From assembly GCA_024692605.1 (NCBI GenBank), contig JAILMQ010000234.1, positions 1 through 35,361 on the forward strand: a stretch of DNA of 35,361 bases, given 5' to 3'. How positions within the stretch are numbered: position 1 is the stretch's first letter; the number at the start of each line of letters is the position of its first letter. This document shows, piece after piece, positions 6,560-35,361 of the stretch. The notes beneath the pieces were generated by a model. The model was not told where the DNA came from. It ran no database searches and worked only from the letters and a program-made list of their open reading frames with translations. A program made the position numbers and the translations under genes. The stretch comes from Eubacterium sp. Lineage in GTDB: Bacteria > Bacillota > Clostridia > Lachnospirales > Lachnospiraceae.

Positions 6560-7606
6560 ATGATAGATAATCTGAATTATTATAGAGCATTTTATATGGT
6601 GGCCTCCACCGGAAGTATAAGCAAAGCAGCTGAAAGGCTCTTTATCAGTCAGCCTGCAGTAAGTAAATCTGTAAAGCTGCTGGAGGATGAACTGGGCACA
6701 CGACTTTTCAACAGAGTAAGCCGCGGTGTTGAGCTTACTGATGAAGGACGCCTTCTTTACGACCATCTGAGAAAGGCCTTTGATACCATATCAAAAGCTG
6801 AGGATGAGCTTGAACATATAAGCAGTCTGGGTATTGGAGAACTGCGTCTGGGCATAAGCACTTCTCTCTGCCGTTATATTCTCATGCCACACCTGAAGTC
6901 ATTTATCGCCGAGAATCCCCATATCAAACTGACCATAGACTGTCATTCAACATATAACACCATCCATCAGCTTCAGGATGGTAATATTGACGTAGGCTTC
7001 ATATGTGAAACCAATCTGCCACCTGATTATACTTACCAGCCCTATGCAGAGATTCACGATACTTTTATAGCCTCCGAATCCTATCTTCACAACCTTTCTG
7101 TACGTGAAGGCAGTTCTGCCGGCTCCAATGATTCTAATAATGATAAGATAAGTCCTCTTTTTATGGCAGGAAATGTAACTGGTTTTATTGACAATACGAA
7201 TCCTCCAGAAGCCCCTGATTCCACAGATTCCTTAAGCTACAAGGATATCCTGGAACGCTCCAATCTTATGCTTCTGGACAAGACCAATATCACCAGAAAA
7301 CATATTGAAGGTTATTTTTATAACTATGATATTAATCCATCCCAGATTCTGGAGATTAACAACATGGATCTTCTTATCGATTTTGCTTCCATTGGAATGG
7401 GTGTATCTGCGGTGGTAAGGGAATTTGCACTGGAGCAGATAAAAAACGGCACAGTTATGGAACTGGAGTCTGAAACTCCAATCCCATCCCGTACCGTTGG
7501 ATTTATATATCGTAGCGGCTTATCTGACGATTCGCCTACCAGACATTTTATTGACTTCGTCAGTTCTTCCCCTTCATCTTTTCGAGATAATTCTTATCAG
7601 GAATAA
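6560..7606 (+). CDS. LysR-family transcriptional regulator
   Basis: This 348-residue regulator is divergent from the leu-ilv operon. Residues 1-62 form the LysR winged helix (YYRAFYMVASTGSISKAAER, then LFISQPAVSKSVKLLEDELG and RLFNRVSRGVELTDEGRLL). Residues about 92 onward form the periplasmic-binding-like co-inducer domain (LRLGISTSLCRYILMPHL, DVGFICET, GMGVSAVVREFAL). It is about 40-50 residues longer than the usual LysR length. The excess is a Ser/Asn/Asp/Pro-rich stretch at about 183-226, between the two effector subdomains. GGGAGAG precedes the ATG. Position suggests control of leuC and downstream genes by a branched-chain pathway intermediate; the ligand is not deducible. Its last 47 nt overlap the convergent 404-residue membrane gene. 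Confidence 0.92.
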   Translation: MIDNLNYYRAFYMVASTGSISKAAERLFISQPAVSKSVKLLEDELGTRLFNRVSRGVELTDEGRLLYDHLRKAFDTISKAEDELEHISSLGIGELRLGISTSLCRYILMPHLKSFIAENPHIKLTIDCHSTYNTIHQLQDGNIDVGFICETNLPPDYTYQPYAEIHDTFIASESYLHNLSVREGSSAGSNDSNNDKISPLFMAGNVTGFIDNTNPPEAPDSTDSLSYKDILERSNLMLLDKTNITRKHIEGYFYNYDINPSQILEINNMDLLIDFASIGMGVSAVVREFALEQIKNGTVMELESETPIPSRTVGFIYRSGLSDDSPTRHFIDFVSSSPSSFRDNSYQE

Positions 7607-8774
7607 GTCCGCCGTATCTTACATTTTCATAAAGACCTGTGAGGTCACTGTCATACTCCTCTTCCAGGGTCTTAAGAGCCTTATCTATATCACCTGCGGT
7701 GTCCTTGCTGTCGGGCATAAAGAACTTTCTGTATGTAAGCACTCTTCCTCTATATATCTTTCTGGCCTTCATTTCAGGAGAAAGACGACCTGCTTTATCA
7801 GAGGAAACTATTCTTTCTCTTATTATTCTCAGATTCGACTTTTTGTTCAGATTCTCAGAATCCTCATAGGATCTGTCCTGTCTCTCAACTATTATCTTTA
7901 TTACAAGCTTTATTACCCTTATCAGTACATAGGCACATACTGCAAAAACAGCAACTGCAAAAATAAAGTAAATAATATCTGCCAGAAGACTGTGACCCTC
8001 TGCCACCTTCTTAACATCATCCAGAGCTTTATGTTCATACATGCCTCCACCCAGCAGTCCAATGATCAGATTCATGAACGCCAGGAACAAAAGCATTGCC
8101 AGATAGATAAGTCTTATAACCGCCACAAACATATTGTAAACAACCTTAGGAAAATTCAGCAGATTTGATATACCGATAAATACGATTATAAGCACCATTA
8201 TTCCGGCTATTATAACACTGTTAACTGAGATGATCTGTCCAAGGGGTGCCCCTGTGATATTCTTTGCGGAATGAATATACCTCTCCAGCCCTTGAAAATA
8301 CATGGAAAACAGGTAGATAAAAATCAGAATAACAGGAATTATAAATCCCATCATTTTCAGACTTTCATTTTCCAGATATTCGGAAATCGCCAGAGTCGCA
8401 ATACCTCCAAGGAATGGAAACCAGGGAAGATCACTTATTTCTCCCAGTTCATAGCCCCTCTTTATGTAAACCAATCCATCCATAAAGAAAAAGAATAATG
8501 CAACTATAATAAGCCACTTAAGAGAAGTATTTCCCACCAGGAAAAATGTAACTACCCCTAAAGGGATATGCATAAGAATAAGATAAATACCTCTTGTGGT
8601 CTGCTCTCTTGCAAAAAACGAGATGAGCAGCAAAAGAGAGATATATCCAATCCATTTAATCTCAAGAAATGGTTTATAATACATTGCATATATGGTATTT
8701 AGAATAAGAATTATATAAAGCACCTGAGCTATATATTTCAGCCCACGTCTTACCAGTTTTATCCACTCATACAT
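7560..8774 (-). CDS. Multi-pass membrane protein of a MoxR-DUF58 module
   Basis: The protein has 404 residues: about eight or nine hydrophobic spans over roughly residues 10-295, then a charged cytoplasmic tail. The tail (about 300-404) has ARKIYRGRVLTYRKFF and LTGLYENVRYGG, which recall the C-terminal DUF4129-like segment of the TgpA-type proteins that commonly follow MoxR and DUF58. There is no transglutaminase domain with a Cys-His-Asp triad. The ATG overlaps the end of the DUF58 gene by 8 nt, so the two are coupled. The 3' end overlaps lysR on the other strand by 47 nt, with both ends coding, leaving no room for a terminator between them. Exact function is unknown; the context implies envelope-related assembly with the MoxR ATPase. 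Confidence 0.75.
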   Translation of the reverse strand: MYEWIKLVRRGLKYIAQVLYIILILNTIYAMYYKPFLEIKWIGYISLLLLISFFAREQTTRGIYLILMHIPLGVVTFFLVGNTSLKWLIIVALFFFFMDGLVYIKRGYELGEISDLPWFPFLGGIATLAISEYLENESLKMMGFIIPVILIFIYLFSMYFQGLERYIHSAKNITGAPLGQIISVNSVIIAGIMVLIIVFIGISNLLNFPKVVYNMFVAVIRLIYLAMLLFLAFMNLIIGLLGGGMYEHKALDDVKKVAEGHSLLADIIYFIFAVAVFAVCAYVLIRVIKLVIKIIVERQDRSYEDSENLNKKSNLRIIRERIVSSDKAGRLSPEMKARKIYRGRVLTYRKFFMPDSKDTAGDIDKALKTLEEEYDSDLTGLYENVRYGGLIPDKNYLEKMKGKN

Positions 8775-25879: not shown

Positions 25880-25979
25880 AATAAAATCACTCCTATTTTT
25901 CTATCATAATTCATCGTTAGATTACATAGTTTCACACTGCGAATCAGAAGTAAATCACAGATACCAACATAATACCAAA

Positions 25980-26013
25980 AAAGAGCGATTTTCACAATAG
26001 AAAACCGCTCTTT
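25980..26013 (-). terminator. Rho-independent terminator after the NCS1 permease
   Basis: On the minus strand, AAAGAGCGGTTTTC pairs with GAAAATCGCTCTTT as a 14-bp stem with one G-T wobble and a 6-nt loop, followed by a run of T. It starts 37 nt after the permease stop and ends the licCA-like operon before the asp23 gene. Confidence 0.9.
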
Positions 26014-26050
26014 TATATAATATTGAAAAACTATCCAATAACCCACAAAT

Positions 26051-27481
26051 TTACACTATATCCAGACTGTTTCTGTCCCTGAGCATATACTTCTTAAGAG
26101 GAGTAAGACTTGCCAGCCAGTAAAGCAGTCCACCAGATATTGCTGTAAATCCACTTCCGGTTGTAACCATAAAAATATTACTCTTTATAGCTCCGTTTAC
26201 AGGATTGTATACAAAAAGTATTCCGAGAACAAATGCAATCAGCATACATCCTAATCCAACAAAATTAAATCCATTATTAAACTTATATTCATCATGATCA
26301 TCAAGGTAGTATAAACCTCTAAGAGATATCTTCCTCTTCTTTACTATCAGATAATCCACCACCGTCATACCAATTATAGGTCCCTGGATATAAGCCGCAC
26401 AAGAGATAAAGGAACCGAAGTTATCCATTACCCAGCCCCATACTGTAAGAGCACTTACATAAAACATGGCTATAATAACAAGCGTCTTATATCTGATATT
26501 CGGAAGTCCTCCCTTTACTATCATGCAGTTTACATATGAACCTGTACCCTGCGTACCAATATTAGCAAATGCAACAAGAAGCAGACTGAGAAGTGAGAAT
26601 CCGGGACCGGCAAGTTTTGCAAGCATAGTTGTTGGATCTGATTCATAATATCCATACTTAACAAACATTGCCAGCGCCATAACACCACCTGCCGCAACAA
26701 AGAATGGTGCTACTACTCCATATGCAAGTGATGTAGCCCAGTAACCACTTCTTTCTGTCTTTGCAAGTCTAGGCATAACAAGTGCCTGGGTAGACCAGGA
26801 AAATGCAAATGCTACATTTCCTTCTGCAGAAAGCATAAAACGACCTAAAGGACTGCTATATAATGAATCATCAGGAACGACTTTATTGATATCCCCAATA
26901 GGAACAGAAGTAAAGCAGATAATAACGATTATGATACCTACTGCCAGAAGTGCTGTAACCAGAAAACGGTTTGTCCACTTTATAACTTCAGGTCCACCTA
27001 AAGCAATAAGCGTTCCAAGAATAACACATAAGACACCCAAAACCGGTTTCCATATACTGGGATTTAATGCTATTCCGAAGCCTCCGAGAAGGTTGATCAT
27101 GGAGGATGCAAAAAGCTGTGAATCTACTGCATACCATCCAAAATTCGCCATACTTATGACGGTTGCAAATATGGCAACACCCTTAATGCCCAGAACAGAT
27201 CTAAGCCATATCCATAGATCGATACCATATCTCACTGCAAAAAGAATAGGGATACACTCTATAAGTATCCATACAATATTAAAACAGAATATATTGATAA
27301 GCATCTGTTTAAAGCTGAGATACTGTGCAACATATGCTCCCTGGGTGTAACACCATGTTGCTATTGAAAAACCACTTGTGGCAAGGAACAGATCAATAAA
27401 AGAATACTGTCTGTCCTTTTTCAGCATCGGCACAGCACCGGTTATTGTTTCCTGTTTGATATAATCAGAATGTGCACTCAT
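26051..27481 (-). CDS. NCS1-family permease (cytosine/purine-type fold)
   Basis: The protein has 476 residues and about twelve membrane spans. Near the N-terminus, DLFLATSGFSIATWCYTQGAYVAQYLS resembles the NCS1 substrate and cation site region. FGWYAVDSQLFASSMINLLGG, FSWSTQALVMPRLAKTERSGYW and AYIQGPIIGMTVVDYLIVKKRK also fit the family. Known members carry cytosine, purines, uracil, allantoin, hydantoins or thiamine precursors, so the substrate is open. The context (kinase-nucleotidyltransferase fusion) suggests an amine-bearing alcohol or a pyrimidine-like compound. The ATG overlaps the upstream 60-residue gene by 1 nt (TGATG), so the two are coupled. A terminator follows. Confidence 0.88.
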   Translation of the reverse strand: MSAHSDYIKQETITGAVPMLKKDRQYSFIDLFLATSGFSIATWCYTQGAYVAQYLSFKQMLINIFCFNIVWILIECIPILFAVRYGIDLWIWLRSVLGIKGVAIFATVISMANFGWYAVDSQLFASSMINLLGGFGIALNPSIWKPVLGVLCVILGTLIALGGPEVIKWTNRFLVTALLAVGIIIVIICFTSVPIGDINKVVPDDSLYSSPLGRFMLSAEGNVAFAFSWSTQALVMPRLAKTERSGYWATSLAYGVVAPFFVAAGGVMALAMFVKYGYYESDPTTMLAKLAGPGFSLLSLLLVAFANIGTQGTGSYVNCMIVKGGLPNIRYKTLVIIAMFYVSALTVWGWVMDNFGSFISCAAYIQGPIIGMTVVDYLIVKKRKISLRGLYYLDDHDEYKFNNGFNFVGLGCMLIAFVLGILFVYNPVNGAIKSNIFMVTTGSGFTAISGGLLYWLASLTPLKKYMLRDRNSLDIV

Positions 27482-27663
27482 CAGTTAATTACCCCCACCA
27501 TACATAAAACTATTAAAACCAGTGAGATAACAACACCCACTACAATACCAATAACATCTCCCTTCCCAATCTTCTTCGGGAATTCGTATGATGGATCACT
27601 CATCTCATTAAGACGTTTAGACGTCTCTTCCTGTATAAGCACCTCAATATTTTCTTCACTCAT
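27481..27663 (-). CDS. 60-residue single-pass membrane protein
   Basis: An acidic N-terminal part (MSEENIEVLIQEETSKRLNE) is followed by a short basic patch (FPKKIGKGD, about 28-36) and one hydrophobic helix (VIGIVVGVVISLVLIVLCMVGVI, about 37-59). There is no cleavage-like motif. AAGGAGAAG precedes the ATG at a good distance, so it is a real gene. It is 36 nt after the licC-licA-like gene and its TGA overlaps the permease ATG. The likely topology is N-in by the positive-inside rule. It looks like a small accessory subunit or stabiliser of the permease. I know of no family for it. Confidence 0.8.
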   Translation of the reverse strand: MSEENIEVLIQEETSKRLNEMSDPSYEFPKKIGKGDVIGIVVGVVISLVLIVLCMVGVIN

Positions 27664-27699
27664 TATACTTCTCCTTAATACTTATTTATATTTAAGTCA

Positions 27700-29463
27700 T
27701 TAGTTATACATTTCAAGACCAATCATTGTATAATCTAATGAACTCTTATACCATAAATACTGCCACTCTCCCACCGGATTACCTACTGTATCCTGATATA
27801 TTGACCAGATATACCAATAGAAAGATAATACAGCAACATAGCCCACATAATGAGCCAGTTCTCCACTTTCCGGTTCATGACGCAGATATCTTTTTATAAT
27901 ATCCTTAGCCTCATCATATGTATAATCCGAACAGGCGATAAATGTACCCAAATCACTTGCCGGATCAGCCATTCCGCTGTATTCCCAATCTATAAGATAC
28001 ATCTTTCCGGATTTATCTATAAGGAAGTTGGGATCGTAGCAATCCGAATGACATAAACACGGGCTTACATTATCAGCATCAAGATAATCCTTAAGCTTAT
28101 GAATATCTGATAGCATTTGGGTCAGTTCCTCAGTTTTTCTGCTCTGAGGAAGTCTTTCATAGAAATTATTAATCTCAGTAAAAATATCAAACTTAAATCC
28201 CGTATCTTCCCCACAGTTATGCAGCTTTCTTACCATATCAAGTGCAGTATCAACTTCCTTGTCATTATGATAATCCAGTGTTCTTGCATCTTCTACAAAT
28301 TCAGATATCTTCCAGCCCTTTTCAGAATCTATATAGATAAATGTATCATCCAGTCCAAGCGACTTGGCAATATGCATGGAACTCGCTTCACTTTCTCTGT
28401 TAATATAATTTTCTGTTCCTGCTCCCGGATGTCTGTATACGTATTTTTTATCCTTTACCAGGAAGGAAAAGGAGGAATTAGTAAGTCCATTTTTAATCGG
28501 TTCTATCCTATGTATATCCTTTTTATCACATTTTAAAACCTTACATATATTATCCATTATGGTTGAGTTAATATTGGATATATAGTTTTCATCAAACTGT
28601 CTCAGTTCATCGAGAGAATCAAACTCGTAAATCACCCCATCTTTATATTTTCTTATATAAATATCCAGTTCACCCAGATGAGCCTTTAGAAAGTTCTCCC
28701 ACAGATTTTCTTTTACTTCAGCAAGATGATACTCAGCTTTTAATAATCTTTTGAATACCCCGGAAAATGCGCGATCAAAATATGCATGACCTATCATATA
28801 CCAGGAGTCCCTTCCTCCATATAAAACATCTGTAATCTTATCAGAATTATCTGTTACAAGAAGATATTCATCCGTTTCTCCATCACAGTATTGTGCGGAA
28901 TAATACGCTCTATAGACATATGGTTCAAAAACATTTTCTGTAAAATAATTATCAGAGGAACATATATATGTATTGTCGAGCTGGTCTAATACTCTTATTA
29001 ACGTTGAGGTATTGTTATAACGAAAATAATCTTCGTTGATTACAATTTTTACACCATATTTTTCTGCCAGATAAAAAAGTTTATCCTGCATATAACCTAC
29101 AACAACAGTAATGTCATTTATTCCTGCATCATGAAGCTGGTTTATCTCCCTTTCAATAAGTTTTTCTCCCCGAACATTAATTAAAGCTTTGGGATTTTCA
29201 AAGGAAAGAGGTGCAAACCTAGTGCTCATGCCTGCTGCCATAATGACAGCATTTTTTACTTTATATGGTTTCAGAGCATTTAAGCCCTCTTCGGTGAGCC
29301 TGTAATCCTGATTAATAAGCCTCTCTTCCTTTAATTCATTAAGGACTGAATTGACCTTACCCAATGAAAAGTCAGTCGCTTCAGCAATTTTCCTTTGGGT
29401 AATGGATTCATTTTTAATTTTTAAAAGACTAAATAAAACATTAAATTGATTTTTGTTTATCAT
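27700..29463 (-). CDS. wHTH + CTP-type nucleotidyltransferase + choline-kinase-like fusion (LicC-LicA type)
   Basis: The 587 residues hold three domains. Residues 1-68 are a MarR/DeoR-like winged helix (ESITQRKIAEATDFSLGKV). Residues 71-290 are a nucleotidyltransferase with the NTP loop AAGMSTRFAPLSFENPKAL (76-94), VVVGY, NNTSTLIRVL and CSSDNYF. Residues about 300-587 are a choline/ethanolamine kinase-like domain with KNGLTNSSFSFLV (324-336), the catalytic HSDCYDPNF (H472, D474, N479) and the metal-binding LIDWEYSGMADPASDLGTF (D492). It should phosphorylate a small alcohol and activate it with CTP. LicCA fusions are known from Treponema denticola; the added DNA-binding domain suggests self-regulation. 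TGAGGA precedes the ATG. Choline is the likeliest substrate but is not proven. Confidence 0.85.
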   Translation of the reverse strand: MINKNQFNVLFSLLKIKNESITQRKIAEATDFSLGKVNSVLNELKEERLINQDYRLTEEGLNALKPYKVKNAVIMAAGMSTRFAPLSFENPKALINVRGEKLIEREINQLHDAGINDITVVVGYMQDKLFYLAEKYGVKIVINEDYFRYNNTSTLIRVLDQLDNTYICSSDNYFTENVFEPYVYRAYYSAQYCDGETDEYLLVTDNSDKITDVLYGGRDSWYMIGHAYFDRAFSGVFKRLLKAEYHLAEVKENLWENFLKAHLGELDIYIRKYKDGVIYEFDSLDELRQFDENYISNINSTIMDNICKVLKCDKKDIHRIEPIKNGLTNSSFSFLVKDKKYVYRHPGAGTENYINRESEASSMHIAKSLGLDDTFIYIDSEKGWKISEFVEDARTLDYHNDKEVDTALDMVRKLHNCGEDTGFKFDIFTEINNFYERLPQSRKTEELTQMLSDIHKLKDYLDADNVSPCLCHSDCYDPNFLIDKSGKMYLIDWEYSGMADPASDLGTFIACSDYTYDEAKDIIKRYLRHEPESGELAHYVGYVAVLSFYWYIWSIYQDTVGNPVGEWQYLWYKSSLDYTMIGLEMYN

Positions 29464-29520
29464 ATCGTCCTCATACTTAACCTATATAATATTTATCTTT
29501 ATTCAAAAGATTATTGTATT

Positions 29521-29528
29521 TTGTTCAA
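29521..29528. promoter_or_regulatory. Candidate operator half 1 (TTGTTCAA)
   Basis: TTGTTCAA on the plus strand lies downstream of the -10 of the lic-like promoter, 23 nt from its inverted partner at 29552-29559. It is itself an imperfect dyad (TTG-NN-CAA). Confidence 0.45.
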
Positions 29529-29540
29529 CTCATATAGAAT

Positions 29541-29568
29541 ATTATAAAACATTGAACAACGATGTCAA
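29541..29568 (-). promoter_or_regulatory. Predicted promoter of the licCA-like operon
   Basis: On the minus strand, a consensus TTGACA (29563-29568), a 16-nt spacer and a consensus TATAAT (29541-29546) form a strong sigma-A promoter. Transcription would start near 29534, leaving a leader of about 70 nt before the fusion gene. Confidence 0.75.
29552..29559. promoter_or_regulatory. Candidate operator half 2 (TTGAACAA)
   Basis: TTGAACAA on the plus strand lies between the -35 and -10 boxes and is the inverted copy of the site at 29521-29528. A protein bound at both would occlude the -10. Confidence 0.45.
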
Positions 29569-29573
29569 TAAAC

Positions 29574-29638: not shown

Positions 29639-30913
29639 CTAATTCAACTGTAACTCTGCATCTTCTACTTTTTCATTAAGAGTTTCCAGCTTTTTCATTA
29701 CATAATCAACTGTTCTTACAGTTCCTTCACCCATATGACACCAGGTCTCATTTCTCGCCTGTTCACGACCTTTGCTAAACTTTTCACTACTGATTGTATT
29801 ATCAATTATTGTCTTTATATCCTCAAAGTTATCTTCATTCAGAACCTGACCTATTTCAGGAAGAATCTTAAAGGTCCAGAGTTCGTCATCCACCCAGCAG
29901 GCATCATATGGAGATTTATCAAACTCAGTATCTGTATATATAACAGGTTTATTAAATACAAGGGTATAATCGAAGATTACACCTGAAAAATCAGAAATAA
30001 GAATATCAGAATTCATAAGGGAATTAAAGTTATCACTTTCTCTATCCCATTTGAAATTGTCGTTTTCAGGGAACTTACTCATAAGCTCATCCATCATATC
30101 CTTTTCTGAAGTATAAGACTGTGGATGTGGTCTTACGATAATGTTATATCCTGTATCAATGAGCAGTTCAATAAACTTTGCACCATACTTGGATAATATA
30201 CCACTTTTACCCCAGGACGGAGCAAGAAGTACGGTAGGCTTTTTCTTTTCAGAAGAACCAGACTCTTTTTTAGCCGCCAGCTCCTTATCAAGCCTCTTCT
30301 TCATCTCATCCATATAAGGAATACCAACGATTTCCAGTTCTTTCTCTGGAAGATTTCTAAGCTTCTCAATATCTCTGATCTGCTTTATCTGATACTTACC
30401 GGATAATAGAATCGCATCATAATAGTCTATTCCAAACATTCTATATAGAATAATATCACTGGAGGCATGAGGAATATGTATATAGTATTCCACATCTCTT
30501 GAACGCTTCCACTGGAAAACATCCAGACTAGGTGTTGTAGATAATACAACCTTTGCGTTAAGGTTATTAAGTTTGGCAAAGGCTTTATTACCCTCACCTA
30601 TATACATGCACTCTATATTTTCATATTTCTTACTAAGGGCAGGATCATCCTCAGAAGCTGTCATGAAAATAACCTTCTGTCCTCTTTTTTCAAATTCATC
30701 ACAGATAGGTTCAAAAACATTCCAGTATCTTTTATGATCAGAAAAAATAACTATATCTTGTTTGTCAGAGTCTCCGCCTGCATCTTTTCCTCCTGAAATC
30801 CACATTTTAAACTTCATAAAGAAGTTTCTAAGAAAATAAAATGCAGCACCTAACACACCAAGTAATATTGTAAAAAGCATACTCCCGGTTCCGGGATCAA
30901 TATAAAGTATCAT
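29639..30913 (-). CDS. CDP-glycerol glycerophosphotransferase-family protein
   Basis: The 424 residues have an N-terminal membrane helix (about 12-31) followed by a GT-B-like glycerophosphotransferase domain (about 55-405). HIPHASSD stands where TagF/TagB have WHGT, LLAPSWGKSG matches the APTWR region, IIVRPHPQS supplies the HP motif, and DILISDFSGVIFDYTLVFNKPVIY matches the SDYSSVMFD signature. TagB/TagF relatives build or prime poly(glycerol/ribitol phosphate) wall polymers from CDP-alcohols at the inner membrane. The HGT-to-HAS change may mean another acceptor or donor. AAGGAAGAG precedes the ATG. Terminators lie on both sides, so it is probably monocistronic. The neighbouring LicCA-like operon, which should also make a CDP-alcohol, supports a cell-envelope role. 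Confidence 0.85.
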   Translation of the reverse strand: MILYIDPGTGSMLFTILLGVLGAAFYFLRNFFMKFKMWISGGKDAGGDSDKQDIVIFSDHKRYWNVFEPICDEFEKRGQKVIFMTASEDDPALSKKYENIECMYIGEGNKAFAKLNNLNAKVVLSTTPSLDVFQWKRSRDVEYYIHIPHASSDIILYRMFGIDYYDAILLSGKYQIKQIRDIEKLRNLPEKELEIVGIPYMDEMKKRLDKELAAKKESGSSEKKKPTVLLAPSWGKSGILSKYGAKFIELLIDTGYNIIVRPHPQSYTSEKDMMDELMSKFPENDNFKWDRESDNFNSLMNSDILISDFSGVIFDYTLVFNKPVIYTDTEFDKSPYDACWVDDELWTFKILPEIGQVLNEDNFEDIKTIIDNTISSEKFSKGREQARNETWCHMGEGTVRTVDYVMKKLETLNEKVEDAELQLN

Positions 30914-31026: not shown

Positions 31027-34000
31027 CTATTTTGTAACTTTTGCCTTCTTTGGAAGACCAGACTTCTTAAGCATCTTCTTGTAAGCTTTAAGCTTCTTCT
31101 TTGGACACTTAAACTTAGCACCCTTCTTGATTGTCTTAAATGCCTTAGCTCCGACCTTCTTAAGCTTTGTAGTCTTGAATGTTACAAGCTTCAGTTTTGA
31201 ACATCCGGCAAAGGCCTGCTTACCAATAGTTTTTACACTCTTAGGAATAACTATCTTAGTAAGTGACTTACAATTTTTGAATGCAAAGTTTCCAATTGTA
31301 GTAACTTTAGCTCCAATTGTAACAGTCTTAAGCTTTGTACATCCGTCAAATGCATTTGCACCAATGGTTGTAACATTAGCGCCTATAACAACCTTAGTAA
31401 TCTTTGTATTACCCTTGAATGCACCAGGCTTAATAGATGTTACAGGAATTGTCTTACCGCCAACACTTACTGTTGCAGGAATTGTTACAGCACCTGCTGC
31501 CACTACTGAACCTTCATAGGTTGCAGACTTACCATCACTATTAACTCTAACCTTAGCATCTCCTGAAACTGCTGTTGAACCAGGATCTCCAGGATTAACC
31601 TTCTTGGTTACAACAACCTTACAATAAGCCTTTTCACCACCAGGTACACTCTTAGCTGTAATTTCTGTTTCACCAACCTTTACACCCGTGATCACACCAT
31701 TTGCATCAACCTTGGCAATAGAAGGATCATCACTTATATATTCAACTAATTCATCAGATGTAGAAGGAGTCTTAGTAACCTTTGTTGCAACTGTAGAACC
31801 AGCCATAACTGTGTATGTTTCCTTAGCGAACGCAAGTTCTTCTATCTTAATTCCAATAACTCTTACTGTGTAGATAGCTTTAAGTCCACTTGCTGTCACA
31901 CATTCAATTGTAGTTTCACCGGTCTTAAGTCCCTTATAGTAACACTTCTTAGTTGAAACACATGACCTTCCATAAGTTCCCTCATCATCAGTTGCACTAA
32001 CCTGAATAATAGTAGGATCTTTAACGGTAAATGTAACCTCTTCGTGACTATCTTCCGGTGCTATGATAAGTCCTTCATCCGCATCTTCTTCTGTTGTAAT
32101 ACTAATTGAATGAATTTCATCTTTGTAAACTGCATCCTTGTCCTTATTGAATAACAAACTAGTTGCCTTCTTGGTTACTGTTACATAATAATAATCATCT
32201 TCACCACTAAGAACACCTTCAGCATAAATTCTAGTTTCTCCCGCTGCTACAGCAGTTACTTTTCCTGTTGAAGGATCAACCGTTGCAATGCTAGGATCAT
32301 TACTGCTATAAACTATCTTTTCTGTAGAATCAGCAGGAACTATTGTAGCAGTATTAGCTCTGCTTTCTCCTTCATAAAGTGTAATATCCTCTGTATCAAA
32401 ACGTATATCTGTAATAGGTTTTTCAACTACATTAATTGTTATCTGTGAGGTCGAACCATTCTTGGTACTTGCTGTCAGAACAGTAGAACCATTCTTAATT
32501 CCCGTAAAGTATATAGTATCCTGAGTAGAAGCAGATTTTCCGTAAACACCATCTCTGCTGGTTGAAACTTTTGCAATATTTGAATCTTCTACAGTAAATG
32601 TAACTATATCCTTACTTTCAACAGGAAGTCTTAAAAGTCCTTCCTTTTCATCTCTTGAGCTGACTATATCAATATAATCTTTGTCACCGGCTTCAATACT
32701 CAGCTCATTCTGAAGGAACTCAATTCCTTCTGACATCTCTATTACATTTATTTTTAATTCAGCCTTTTCACTTCCACTTGTAACAGTTGTCTTTCCAATC
32801 AGATAATCGTAATCAAGAAGAAGACCTTTCACAACAGCTATTCCATTATCATTTGATAAAGTCATTACTCCATCGTTATCATCAAGGCTCCAATCAACTG
32901 ATTGTGTAGCATACTTAGGAAGACAAACAGCTTTGAATCTGGATGTCTGATTCTGATATACAAAACCATTACCTTTACCATCGATGTATTCAGGATTACC
33001 GTCTTCGTCTACAGTTTCTGATTCAATACTAACGACAACCGGAGCCACTCCATCTGCAGGTTTCTTTACTCTGATAGAGAAGTCCTCACGTTCTGACTTA
33101 GTAGCTGACTCAAGATAAACATCTGCTTCGCCTTCACGAAGAGCCATTATCTCCAGTTCTCCCTTGGAAGGATCATTTGAAACTATGCTGATTATAGGAA
33201 GATTTTGCTCATTAAGGTTATTCTTTGTATAAACTATAAGATTATCTGTTCTGTCTGTGGCATCTCCATCTTCGTCATATTCATATGAATATTTAATAAC
33301 TTCAGTAGTACCGCTAGGTGTATCACTTTCCGGATTAGGCGCCTCAGGCATTTCAAAATAACTTATTCTCTTAGACTCTTCAATTCCAACTGAATCCATG
33401 TAGTATACAATATCATCAATTGGATTACAGATACTTACAGCAATCTTATTAATTTCAGCATTTTCTTTATTAGGTCCTACCCAAGCTTCAATTTCCTGAG
33501 CCGGAAGAGCCTTCTTGATTTCATACTGAGCAGCACTGTAAAGAACTCTTCCCTTTACATCCTTTTCATCTACTACTCCATCTTTGTTTGTATCTTCTAT
33601 CTCGTCACCGTCTTCATCAACCAGCCACTGTCTTACCTTTTTCAGTGCTTCAGTCTCTTCTGTCCAGTTAACATTCTCTGTAACATGGCCTTCTGCTTCT
33701 TCAGGAAGTCTAGGATCCACTGCTGCTACAAGTGTAAGCTTTCTTCCAACATAATCACCATTAATATAAAGTGTATCAGGAACGTTAGGGCGTCCACTTT
33801 CTACTACATGTCCCGGAGTTCCACTTGACATCTCAAAGAGTTTTTCTTCGAATCTGACTGATTCAGCGGGAACAGCCTTTATATCAAGAGGATACTCAAT
33901 ACTCATATTAATAGTTTTTTCTTCAAACTGAACATAAGCCGATACTATTGCATAAGCACCAGGATTACCTTCTGTACCTACAAATTCAGCGTCAGAGCCT

Positions 34001-35361
34001 ATTATGTCAAGGGCAACCTTTTCTCCATTAACAATTTCAAATATTCTTTCTTCCGGTTTTAGATCTGTCTGAGGAACCTCACTTTCTCCGTAAACCCTCT
34101 GAGATATTTTCATATTTACACGATTTCTAAAGGAATTAGAAGGAAGAGCAATCCTCTGTCCCATTGGTACTGTAAATATCTTTCCTCTATATCTTCCGAG
34201 GTTAGGAATAAGTGTTACCTTCTTACACTCCTTATTTATCATGTTTTGAGTAAGGGTTGCATAAACCGGGAAGGTTACCTGTTCAAGCTTTCGACAATTT
34301 ACAAAAGCTTTTCCCTTTATGGCTTCCACTGTATCCGGACATAATGCAATCGTAAGATTATAACAATCACTAAATGCCCCATATGAAACTTCTGGTATAG
34401 CAGTACTTGATAAAGTATCAAGTTCTTTTATAGGTGAACGATAAAACGCCTCATCGTCTATTCCATAATCAAACCACTTTTCATCCGGAGTTTTAGCACT
34501 TTCTTTTCCAAGATTTGCAGCAATAGCGAAGTTCACATCCTGCAAACCATTCTTTCCATTGGACAATCCACTATTTGTGAAGTCGGCCACCATAAAAATA
34601 TAGTCGCCATCAATGTTCTCATCCAATATACCGGTATTAGAAAATGCTTCCTCACCTATATAAATGATTTCTGTACCAAAATCGAGACTATTGGTGTTAT
34701 ATACCTGATAAAATGCTTCGTCACCTATAGCACGAAGACTGTCAGGAAGAGCAGCGCTAAGGCAATAATTTCTCAAAAATGCATCTTCCTTTATATATAA
34801 AAGATTTTCCATTTCATCAAGATTAATTGTTGTTAATCCATGATACTTTCCTGGATTTGGGGCTTCTTCAACTCGTCCATCTTCATCAAAGTCAGTATAC
34901 TGAGGTTTTTCTTCAATGAAACCACATCCGCTAAAACAGTTTTCCGGAATTGTTCTAAGACCTTTTATCGGAAGGTGAACTGACTGAAGCGAATAATCAT
35001 ATCTGAAAGCACTATTGCCTAACTCAGACATTTTATCAGGAAGTACAACATTCTTAAGTCCATAGTAGGTATAAAGCGACTCATCTGTACCTTCAATTTC
35101 TTCATCAGTTTCATATGAACAATACATAAAAGCTTCTTCACCTATACCCACAAGTGTATCAGCAAACTTGGCATTGTCTATATTATCAGTTACATCTTCA
35201 TTAGTAAGACATATTGTACTAAGATTGCACTGTCCATGGAAAGCTCTATCACCAATAGAAACTAATTTATCCGATAACTGAAGAGTATTCATTCCTGTCT
35301 GACTAACCATTTCATTCATATATGGGTCATAACTAAACTCATCATGATCGTCATCAATATT
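31027..35361 (-). CDS. Large LRR (BspA-type) and Ig-like (Big_2) surface protein, N-terminus outside window
   Basis: The frame is open from the right edge to a stop at 31027, giving 1,444 residues; the ATG at 35319 is internal. The N-terminal third has irregular BspA-type LRR_5 units (LVSIGDRAFHGQCNLSTICL, LRAIGDEAFYQ). A beta-rich middle has one EF-hand-like loop, DTNKDGVVDEKD, at residues 590-601 of the visible part. Two duplicated units of about 190 residues follow, each with two Ig-like domains; the second of each is a clear Big_2 domain (SSNDPSIATVDPSTGKVTAV; ISDDPSIAKVDANGVITGV). A regular LRR_5 block (about 1300-1400) is then capped by 46 residues of which 21 are lysine. There is no LPXTG anchor. 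Such proteins are secreted adhesins or matrix binders in gut Lachnospiraceae. Promoter, signal peptide and true length are not visible. Confidence 0.9.
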   Translation of the reverse strand, partial: NIDDDHDEFSYDPYMNEMVSQTGMNTLQLSDKLVSIGDRAFHGQCNLSTICLTNEDVTDNIDNAKFADTLVGIGEEAFMYCSYETDEEIEGTDESLYTYYGLKNVVLPDKMSELGNSAFRYDYSLQSVHLPIKGLRTIPENCFSGCGFIEEKPQYTDFDEDGRVEEAPNPGKYHGLTTINLDEMENLLYIKEDAFLRNYCLSAALPDSLRAIGDEAFYQVYNTNSLDFGTEIIYIGEEAFSNTGILDENIDGDYIFMVADFTNSGLSNGKNGLQDVNFAIAANLGKESAKTPDEKWFDYGIDDEAFYRSPIKELDTLSSTAIPEVSYGAFSDCYNLTIALCPDTVEAIKGKAFVNCRKLEQVTFPVYATLTQNMINKECKKVTLIPNLGRYRGKIFTVPMGQRIALPSNSFRNRVNMKISQRVYGESEVPQTDLKPEERIFEIVNGEKVALDIIGSDAEFVGTEGNPGAYAIVSAYVQFEEKTINMSIEYPLDIKAVPAESVRFEEKLFEMSSGTPGHVVESGRPNVPDTLYINGDYVGRKLTLVAAVDPRLPEEAEGHVTENVNWTEETEALKKVRQWLVDEDGDEIEDTNKDGVVDEKDVKGRVLYSAAQYEIKKALPAQEIEAWVGPNKENAEINKIAVSICNPIDDIVYYMDSVGIEESKRISYFEMPEAPNPESDTPSGTTEVIKYSYEYDEDGDATDRTDNLIVYTKNNLNEQNLPIISIVSNDPSKGELEIMALREGEADVYLESATKSEREDFSIRVKKPADGVAPVVVSIESETVDEDGNPEYIDGKGNGFVYQNQTSRFKAVCLPKYATQSVDWSLDDNDGVMTLSNDNGIAVVKGLLLDYDYLIGKTTVTSGSEKAELKINVIEMSEGIEFLQNELSIEAGDKDYIDIVSSRDEKEGLLRLPVESKDIVTFTVEDSNIAKVSTSRDGVYGKSASTQDTIYFTGIKNGSTVLTASTKNGSTSQITINVVEKPITDIRFDTEDITLYEGESRANTATIVPADSTEKIVYSSNDPSIATVDPSTGKVTAVAAGETRIYAEGVLSGEDDYYYVTVTKKATSLLFNKDKDAVYKDEIHSISITTEEDADEGLIIAPEDSHEEVTFTVKDPTIIQVSATDDEGTYGRSCVSTKKCYYKGLKTGETTIECVTASGLKAIYTVRVIGIKIEELAFAKETYTVMAGSTVATKVTKTPSTSDELVEYISDDPSIAKVDANGVITGVKVGETEITAKSVPGGEKAYCKVVVTKKVNPGDPGSTAVSGDAKVRVNSDGKSATYEGSVVAAGAVTIPATVSVGGKTIPVTSIKPGAFKGNTKITKVVIGANVTTIGANAFDGCTKLKTVTIGAKVTTIGNFAFKNCKSLTKIVIPKSVKTIGKQAFAGCSKLKLVTFKTTKLKKVGAKAFKTIKKGAKFKCPKKKLKAYKKMLKKSGLPKKAKVTK

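Follow-up and report, generated by a model that had tools for sequence, protein, structure and literature searches.

Introduction

In Enterobacterales, NadR combines a helix-turn-helix (HTH), a nucleotidyltransferase and a kinase, and the targets of its repression include pnuC, which encodes a permease (sections of PMC12421817). The window analysed here is a whole stretch of 35,361 nt, contig JAILMQ010000234.1 of Eubacterium sp. (Lachnospiraceae), with positions counted from 1. Its minus strand holds a three-gene operon (26051-29463) encoding a winged-HTH (wHTH)-LicC-LicA fusion of 587 amino acids (aa), a 60-aa protein with a single transmembrane (TM) segment and an NCS1 permease. As in NadR, a single chain has an HTH at its N-terminus and unites a nucleotidyltransferase with a kinase from the same salvage pathway, but the transferase and kinase families are LicC- and LicA-like instead of those that define NadR, and the substrate would be another one. 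Furthermore, the fusion sits in the operon predicted to be under its control, and its architecture spans phyla whereas NadR is confined to one order. The fusion thus appears to work like NadR, yet by this comparison it is not a NadR because its catalytic domains belong to other families.

LicC and LicA of the phosphocholine (lic1) pathway of Streptococcus pneumoniae are clearly homologous to the two enzyme domains, in which most catalytic residues are kept, but here the domains are joined to a winged helix in one chain, the adjacent transporter is NCS1 and not LicB, and LicA Val178 is replaced by Tyr. A LicC-LicA fusion, LicCA, is known from Treponema denticola. Unlike PntC, the 2-aminoethylphosphonate cytidylyltransferase, the window fusion includes a kinase domain and lacks adjacent phosphonate genes; Pfam revealed no phosphoenolpyruvate (PEP) mutase among four proteins encoded beside the fusion or in its vicinity. 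The permease belongs by sequence with NCS1 permeases such as Mhp1, but differs from Mhp1 by a small TM partner gene, changed pocket residues and a context of amino-alcohol activation. The ethanolamine permease EutH likewise lies beside close relatives of the fusion, in a class that we take to be Coriobacteriia from the Collinsella record of locus L008, but it represents another transporter family.

Searches of the literature (titles and abstract starts of open-licence papers) returned no description of such a regulator or operator, and the parts consulted of three papers on LicC, PntC and Lic-1 mention neither a winged helix nor such an operator (PMC6697681, PMC10434233, PMC7368946). The initial annotation of this DNA had recognised a winged helix, a LicC-like and a LicA-like domain in one polypeptide, which Pfam, homology and a structural model bear out, and the 60-residue TM protein and NCS1 permease that it placed in the same operon were both confirmed as genes. 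It knew of no description of the three-domain form with this transporter; the architecture turns out to be common, the fusion being matched in 77 of the 246 genomes sampled from a single actinobacterial class, and the idea that the form is unique was therefore rejected.

On comparative grounds, we consider it likely that the locus is a self-regulated operon for the scavenging and activation of a small amino alcohol, with ethanolamine as the likeliest substrate and choline as the second. The NCS1 permease would import the amino alcohol with the microprotein serving as a small membrane subunit, the LicA domain would phosphorylate it and the LicC domain would make the cytidine diphosphate (CDP) derivative, which transferases would attach to a surface polymer or lipid. 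The winged helix at the N-terminus would, in dimeric or higher oligomeric form, bind a TGTTCA-N25-TGAACA site over the core promoter and repress the operon, this binding presumably being tuned by occupancy with the substrate or the CDP product, as in NadR.

Catalytic residues of the fusion

Homology to LicC extends across the whole catalytic domain, in which D107, presumably with a metal role, and E216 are kept. The latter residue coordinates metal in LicC-type enzymes (sections of PMC6697681). Asp105 and Asp192 of LicC are replaced by Ser and Glu, respectively, in the window fusion; position 192 was considered as a discriminator between ethanolamine and choline and rejected, as Glu is found there in every transporter group. 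In LicA, the kinase residues are T29, D176, N181, D194 and E196, and the amine pocket is formed by Y197, W251, W254 and Y268 (sections of PMC4364537). The corresponding T328, D474, N479, D492, E494, Y495, W550, W553 and W567 are present in the fusion, Y268 being a Trp. An inactive kinase motif would have spoken against the initial annotation; as far as sequence can tell, the catalytic residues of both enzyme domains are retained. Structure searches with the fusion model gave, among the matches listed, homologues of both enzyme domains and have little bearing on the wHTH.

Transporters beside the fusion and candidate substrate

An NCS1 permease adjoins all five full-length Bacillota fusions of at least 40% identity (L003, L004, L016, G021 and G436), and the ten permeases with at least 69% identity to that of the window all lie beside a fusion, so that the conservation of the permease in related genomes, on which the initial annotation depended, is upheld. 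At 39-43% identity, 0/5 permeases from the permease-side search lie beside a fusion; the L058 and L068 permeases, which have 39% identity and were reached by searching with the fusion, both do, as do those of L137 and L141, which are 52% identical. LicC and LicA are not fused in G296 (L051), where the gene of an EamA transporter lies between theirs.

The presence of NCS1 instead of a LicB-type transporter, as stressed in the initial annotation, holds for this operon but not for such fusions at large, NCS1 being one of at least four families. Indeed, BCCT transporters account for the eight large TM neighbours tested (8/8), while L061 and L062 were labelled BCCT from size and TM count, and LicB/EamA lies beside the fusion in six loci of the first set and in 15 of 30 Coriobacteriia loci. 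The LicB proteins of L009 and L013, which have no Pfam family, and those of the 30 Coriobacteriia loci were called by our own hidden Markov model built on four sequences. EutH was found beside the fusion in 8 of 13 Coriobacteriia loci that had shown neither LicB nor NCS1 at first sight (two are Pfam-confirmed in L133 and the others are 67-71% identical to one of them). Around L133, the Coriobacteriia cluster L171 groups two EutH genes with a single HTH-LicC gene and three genes of the LicCA type.

A fusion tree of 51 chosen rows, which omits L012, L058, L068, L145, L146, L151, L152 and the loci lacking a transporter label, places the LicB-linked and the BCCT-linked fusions each on one side of a branch (100/100), with the reservation that long branches (L086 group, BCCT group) may join falsely. 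The NCS1-linked fusions of L137 and L141 nest within the EutH clade (96/96), each beside an EutH row with modest support (90/57 and 91/74). At 16 positions separating EutH-linked from LicB-linked fusions, the residue most frequent among NCS1-linked ones is EutH-type at 11 and LicB-type at none, with a tie at one; EutH-type residues at 332, 476, 478 and 571 are found in 17, 16, 16 and 17 of 17 sequences. Position 476 corresponds to LicA Val178, which sits in the choline pocket (sections of PMC4364537). It is Tyr in 16/17 NCS1-linked and 8/8 EutH-linked fusions, Val in 7/8 BCCT-linked and Phe in 18/19 LicB-linked ones, and Asn in L058 and L068. Ethanolamine is on balance the favoured substrate of the window operon, because NCS1-linked fusions resemble EutH-linked ones, and choline is a possible second. 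The pyrimidine alcohols that the initial annotation had also proposed find no support, the context pointing to an amino alcohol.

Choline as the actual substrate is a clearly less probable but serious reading, in which the operon would be autoregulated in the same manner, NCS1 would replace LicB as choline permease and CDP-choline would lead to phosphocholine decoration. Several points favour it and thereby weigh against ethanolamine. LicB, described as a choline permease (sections of PMC10434233), or BCCT lies beside related fusions, the aromatic amine pocket is complete in the fusion (Y495, W550, W553 and W567), and, in the window's genome, LicD has three matches and PF01473 choline-binding repeats occur in seven open frames. 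Moreover, the residues common to EutH- and NCS1-linked fusions may be ancestral. Irrespective of the choice between the two substrates, the replacements of LicC Arg129 and of LicA Glu213 by Cys also count against the main reading. Against choline stand the likeness of NCS1-linked to EutH-linked fusions, with Tyr where BCCT- and LicB-linked fusions have Val and Phe, and the separate clades formed by the LicB- and BCCT-linked fusions.

A conserved predicted operator at the operon promoter

The predicted operator TGTTCA-N25-TGAACA straddles the -10 element of the operon promoter, one half-site being located in the -35/-10 spacer and the other just downstream of the -10. The half-site centres are 31 bp apart, which is about three helical turns. 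For counting, a site was defined as a TGTTCA/TGAACA pair with at most one mismatch and a spacing of 24-26 nt. Visual inspection of the window, L003, L004 and L016 first brought up the motif, and the remaining 11 of the 15 LicCA-NCS1 loci, all selected for holding both the fusion and the permease, served as test set. Eight of these 11 carry the site within 220 bp, and L092 has an exact one at -246, which raises the number to 9/11. Altogether, 13 of 14 HTH-bearing LicCA-NCS1 operons have an upstream site, in both gene orders, since it precedes whichever gene leads the operon, the fusion or the microprotein; L086 has CGCTCA-N25-TGAGCG in its stead (read by eye). Dinucleotide shuffles of the upstream DNA gave a site in 0-14 of 2000 trials per locus. 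Among 180 upstream regions of open reading frames (ORFs) in these loci, ten have the site, nine of them before ORFs of the operon and one before a divergent neighbour sharing the intergenic DNA.

The site was also found with Actinomycetota fusions and with distant fusions (about 29-35% identical) of the window's genus and order. Out of 53 HTH-bearing full fusions (HTH called at E < 1e-5, a rule that includes L012 despite its partly deleted HTH helices), 34 have the site at one mismatch or less compared to 0.29 expected, an expectation that covers the one-mismatch level only; 15 sites are exact and 48 fusions have one at up to two mismatches. The 30 Coriobacteriia loci were fetched after the motif had been fixed, and their HTH was judged from the N-termini. 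At one mismatch 24 of them carry the site, and 20 carry it exactly, versus 0.06 expected; fusion matches in this class far outnumber the loci scanned, and L144, L145, L146, L149, L151 and L152 do not count as independent, their upstream DNA being near-identical. The spacings of one-mismatch pairs centre on 24, 25 and 26 nt (9, 25 and 3 of the 53 loci), with a lesser peak at 35 nt (6/53), about one helical turn beyond the main one, and everted pairs reach a maximum of two loci at any spacing. The core GTTC..GAAC is present at the correct spacing in 66 of 83 loci (the 53 plus the 30 from Coriobacteriia).

The 2.7 Mb genome of the window contains the exact site, at a spacing of 24-26, in a single copy. 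When 11 genomes were scanned, the exact pattern was present in ten and missing from G436, where the HTH of the fusion is truncated; the control pattern occurred twice in G436 and once in each of three other genomes. Five extra exact sites were found in four of the 11 genomes, one of which, in G782, lies some 10 bp upstream of a further HTH-LicC-LicA gene, a divergent one. This gene (L104:4296-6227, minus strand; 31% identity in LicC and 22% in LicA) was revealed solely by the operator pattern. Another exact operator-like site, near position 6916 of L103 (G007:C32:39915), is close to genes that look by eye like those of an ABC transporter and may be a chance occurrence or a further target. The use of the operator as a genome-wide regulon mark was rejected, given that near-matches are at control level in the window's genome and that 1/5 extra exact sites adjoins an HTH-LicC-LicA gene.

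The predicted operator follows the winged helix

The three HTH-less full fusions (L014, L050 and L053) have no site at one mismatch, and no operator was found upstream of L012, with its partly deleted HTH helices; the site is therefore absent at all four HTH-defective fusions. The fusions of L050 (8800-10476) and L012 (10001-11728), with truncated or partly deleted HTH, belong to different phyla. Among LicC-only genes, 2/25 have the site at one mismatch, that of L041 preceding an HTH-bearing fusion and that of L065 belonging to a gene that itself bears the HTH. The half-site also changes with the protein: where the recognition helix opens with Gly in place of Ser, position 6 is a G in 6 of 8 half-sites, versus 2 of 124 for helices with Ser, Ala or Thr, the Gly-helix loci (L006, L009, L013 and L154) possibly sharing a common ancestry.

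Given the conserved placement, the spacing, the association with the HTH, the covariation with the helix and the G782 site, it is very likely that the fused wHTH reads the TGTTCA-N25-TGAACA site. In this comparison, a conserved operator at the fusion's own promoter tracks its DNA-binding domain, as would be expected of an autoregulatory protein. The proposal of the initial annotation that the catalytic protein binds its own promoter, within 29515-29570, thus gains strong comparative support, the predicted operator lying inside this interval, and, as far as sequence can tell, its concern that the winged helix might not bind DNA is allayed by a wHTH that accompanies the operator and by the failure to find the latter at fusions with the HTH deleted or absent.

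Some observations do not fit this reading well. At one mismatch, 19 of the 53 HTH-bearing fusions and 6 of the 30 Coriobacteriia loci have no site, and L009, L012, L031, L052 and L063 among the 53 have none even at two mismatches; the HTH-bearing LicC-only gene of L088 lacks it as well. The operator is the same in the microprotein-first group although its recognition helix differs (S[IT]GYIS), direct half-site pairs cluster slightly at 18-19 nt (3 and 6 of the 53 loci), and many loci are closely related. In the window's genome the reversed control pattern is as frequent as the exact site (1 versus 1), and at one mismatch and a spacing of 25 there are 9 sites versus 8 for the control; here the evidence is the place of the site, its raw count being uninformative.

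A separate, free regulator could read the operator instead, the fused winged helix being a dimerisation or allosteric module without DNA binding. The HTH-bearing loci without a site would agree with this, as would the exact site in G007 near transport genes and without a fusion, but we judge it unlikely: the four fusions without an intact HTH are also without the site, half-site and recognition helix covary, and the site tracks the fusion across gene orders, transporters and two phyla and occurs with HTH-PntC in 3/5 relatives. Returning to a fusion that reads its own operator, we infer repression rather than activation from the position of the site, because one half-site is inside the -35/-10 spacer and the other just after the -10. 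Activation, or the control of further promoters as a regulon, seems slightly less likely still than a free regulator; operator position alone is silent on the sign and the five further exact sites could be additional targets, but this arrangement on a consensus promoter is that of a repressor and near-matches in the window's genome do not exceed the control.

An HTH-PntC paralogue

In the same genome, an HTH-cytidylyltransferase gene on G000:C50 (L065:8135-9031, minus strand) is an HTH-PntC, because a PEP mutase, a thiamine pyrophosphate (TPP) enzyme and an aminotransferase V adjoin it. Its one-mismatch site has a spacing of 26, overlaps the start codon and may be due to chance. For five HTH-PntC relatives, the operator is exact in L124 and L126, has one mismatch in L125 and was not found in L127 and L128.

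More tentatively, and with somewhat less than even confidence, these loci may belong to a widespread, undescribed class of enzyme-repressors in Bacillota and Actinomycetota. A single type of wHTH, with a single operator as its target, would there be fused to the cytidylyltransferases of surface-tailoring pathways for amino alcohols and 2-aminoethylphosphonate, which would sense their own CDP or cytidine monophosphate (CMP) product to shut off the operon; the partner in the window, an NCS1 permease that needs its microprotein as an obligate subunit, would be a new transporter of amino alcohols. If so, phosphocholine or phosphoethanolamine activation in a large bacterial group would be controlled by the enzyme itself, the operator could be searched for in any genome, and the principle of NadR would have been invented independently in another pathway. 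This would also suggest which class of substrate an NCS1 subfamily carries and what a family of membrane proteins of 50-90 residues may do. As ethanolamine and choline are nutrients from the host and serve as tags in host mimicry, a regulator of their capture would be of wide interest.

The NCS1 permease and its microprotein

The window permease scores 64.5 bits against PF02133, whose gathering cut-off is 23.5, which places it in the NCS1 family. A single-TM ORF of 50-89 aa lies at most 120 nt before the NCS1 gene in all 22 loci (a raw count, without chance control), including five with no LicCA beside the permease; in L137 it is 57 aa long. With tblastn, the 14 other LicCA-NCS1 loci gave microprotein homologues in every case except L004 (13/14). 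The microprotein is probably a permease subunit, because it goes with the permease and not with the kinase.

Compared to the Mhp1 pocket (residues from sections of PMC4195764), W116 and N318 are kept in the window permease, Gln42 is replaced by Tyr or Phe and Trp220 is replaced as well, residue 220 being acidic in 22/22 sequences (Glu, or Asp in L058 and L068). Asp at the position of Mhp1 Gln121 was rejected as a mark of this NCS1 clade, since Asp, Ala or Cys occurs there. That the permease carries a nucleobase or a pyrimidine alcohol, the gene pairing being incidental or the enzyme acting on such a compound, is the least likely of the alternatives, as PF02133 membership, a weak Mhp1 similarity and the kept W116 and N318 are outweighed by the 10/10 close permeases beside LicCA, by the LicB, BCCT and EutH transporters adjoining related fusions and by the replaced Gln42 and Trp220.

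Longer NCS1 permeases (886-939 aa), extended at the C-terminus and preceded in each case by a small TM ORF, are encoded at L094:9148-11808, L095:9055-11793 and L097:9385-12204. In L094, Pfam gives the extension a match to a PlsC-like acyltransferase that stays under the cut-off, and the extension of L095 is similar by eye.

Locus organization and neighbouring genes

Table 1. Features of the window in and around the wHTH-LicC-LicA operon
Feature	Position	Strand	Basis or remark
Sigma-70 promoter TTGACA-16-TATAAT, the operon's own	29541..29568	-	12/12 consensus match, best of the region
Predicted operator TGTTCA-N25-TGAACA	29522..29558	none	Half-sites 29522-29527 and 29553-29558
wHTH-LicC-LicA fusion gene, 587 aa	27700..29463	-	
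Winged-helix domain, fusion residues 1-68, recognition helix SLGKVN	29260..29463	-	Pfam PF13412, PF24409; model; alignment
LicC-like cytidylyltransferase domain, residues 67-296	28576..29265	-	
LicA-like amino-alcohol kinase domain, residues 299-587	27703..28569	-	
60-aa single-TM microprotein, predicted NCS1 partner	27481..27663	-	Stop overlaps permease start by one base
NCS1-family permease, predicted amino-alcohol transporter	26051..27481	-	Pfam PF02133, E 1.1e-17; gene pairing; pocket comparison
Terminator-like hairpin closing the operon	25979..26014	-	15-pair stem, then T run
Inverted repeat between the operon and the PF04464 gene	29570-29591/29600-29621		Absent from terminator predictions
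PF04464 CDP-glycerol phosphotransferase-like gene, probably its own unit, possible downstream transferase/polymerase	29639..30913	-	Pfam

The coordinates of the operon and its surroundings are given in Table 1. The CDP-glycerol-transferase-like (PF04464) gene was considered as a member of the operon and rejected, as the inverted repeat and the promoter intervene. This neighbour, in which the initial annotation had seen a hint of the end use, is hence apparently a separate transcription unit, but its homologues do recur near the operon in relatives, at up to 7 kb from LicCA in L003, L089, L092 and L052, and others directly precede the HTH-PntC genes in L124 and L128. Because of this recurrence, the PF04464 protein may act downstream of both the LicCA and the HTH-PntC pathways.

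Near the LicCA-NCS1 operon of three relatives (L003:3277-6033, L089:11860-14631 and L092:3518-6643), proteins of 918-1041 aa have a YidC-type (60KD_IMP) domain followed by a sulfatase/LTA-synthase-like stretch, this second part being above the Pfam cut-off in L003 only. Directly downstream of the LicCA fusion of L049, a minus-strand gene (6954-8768) encodes a nucleotidyltransferase fused to a class I/II aminotransferase. In the window itself, a 1430-aa BspA-type leucine-rich-repeat protein with Big_2 domains is encoded near the operon at 31027-35319, on the minus strand.

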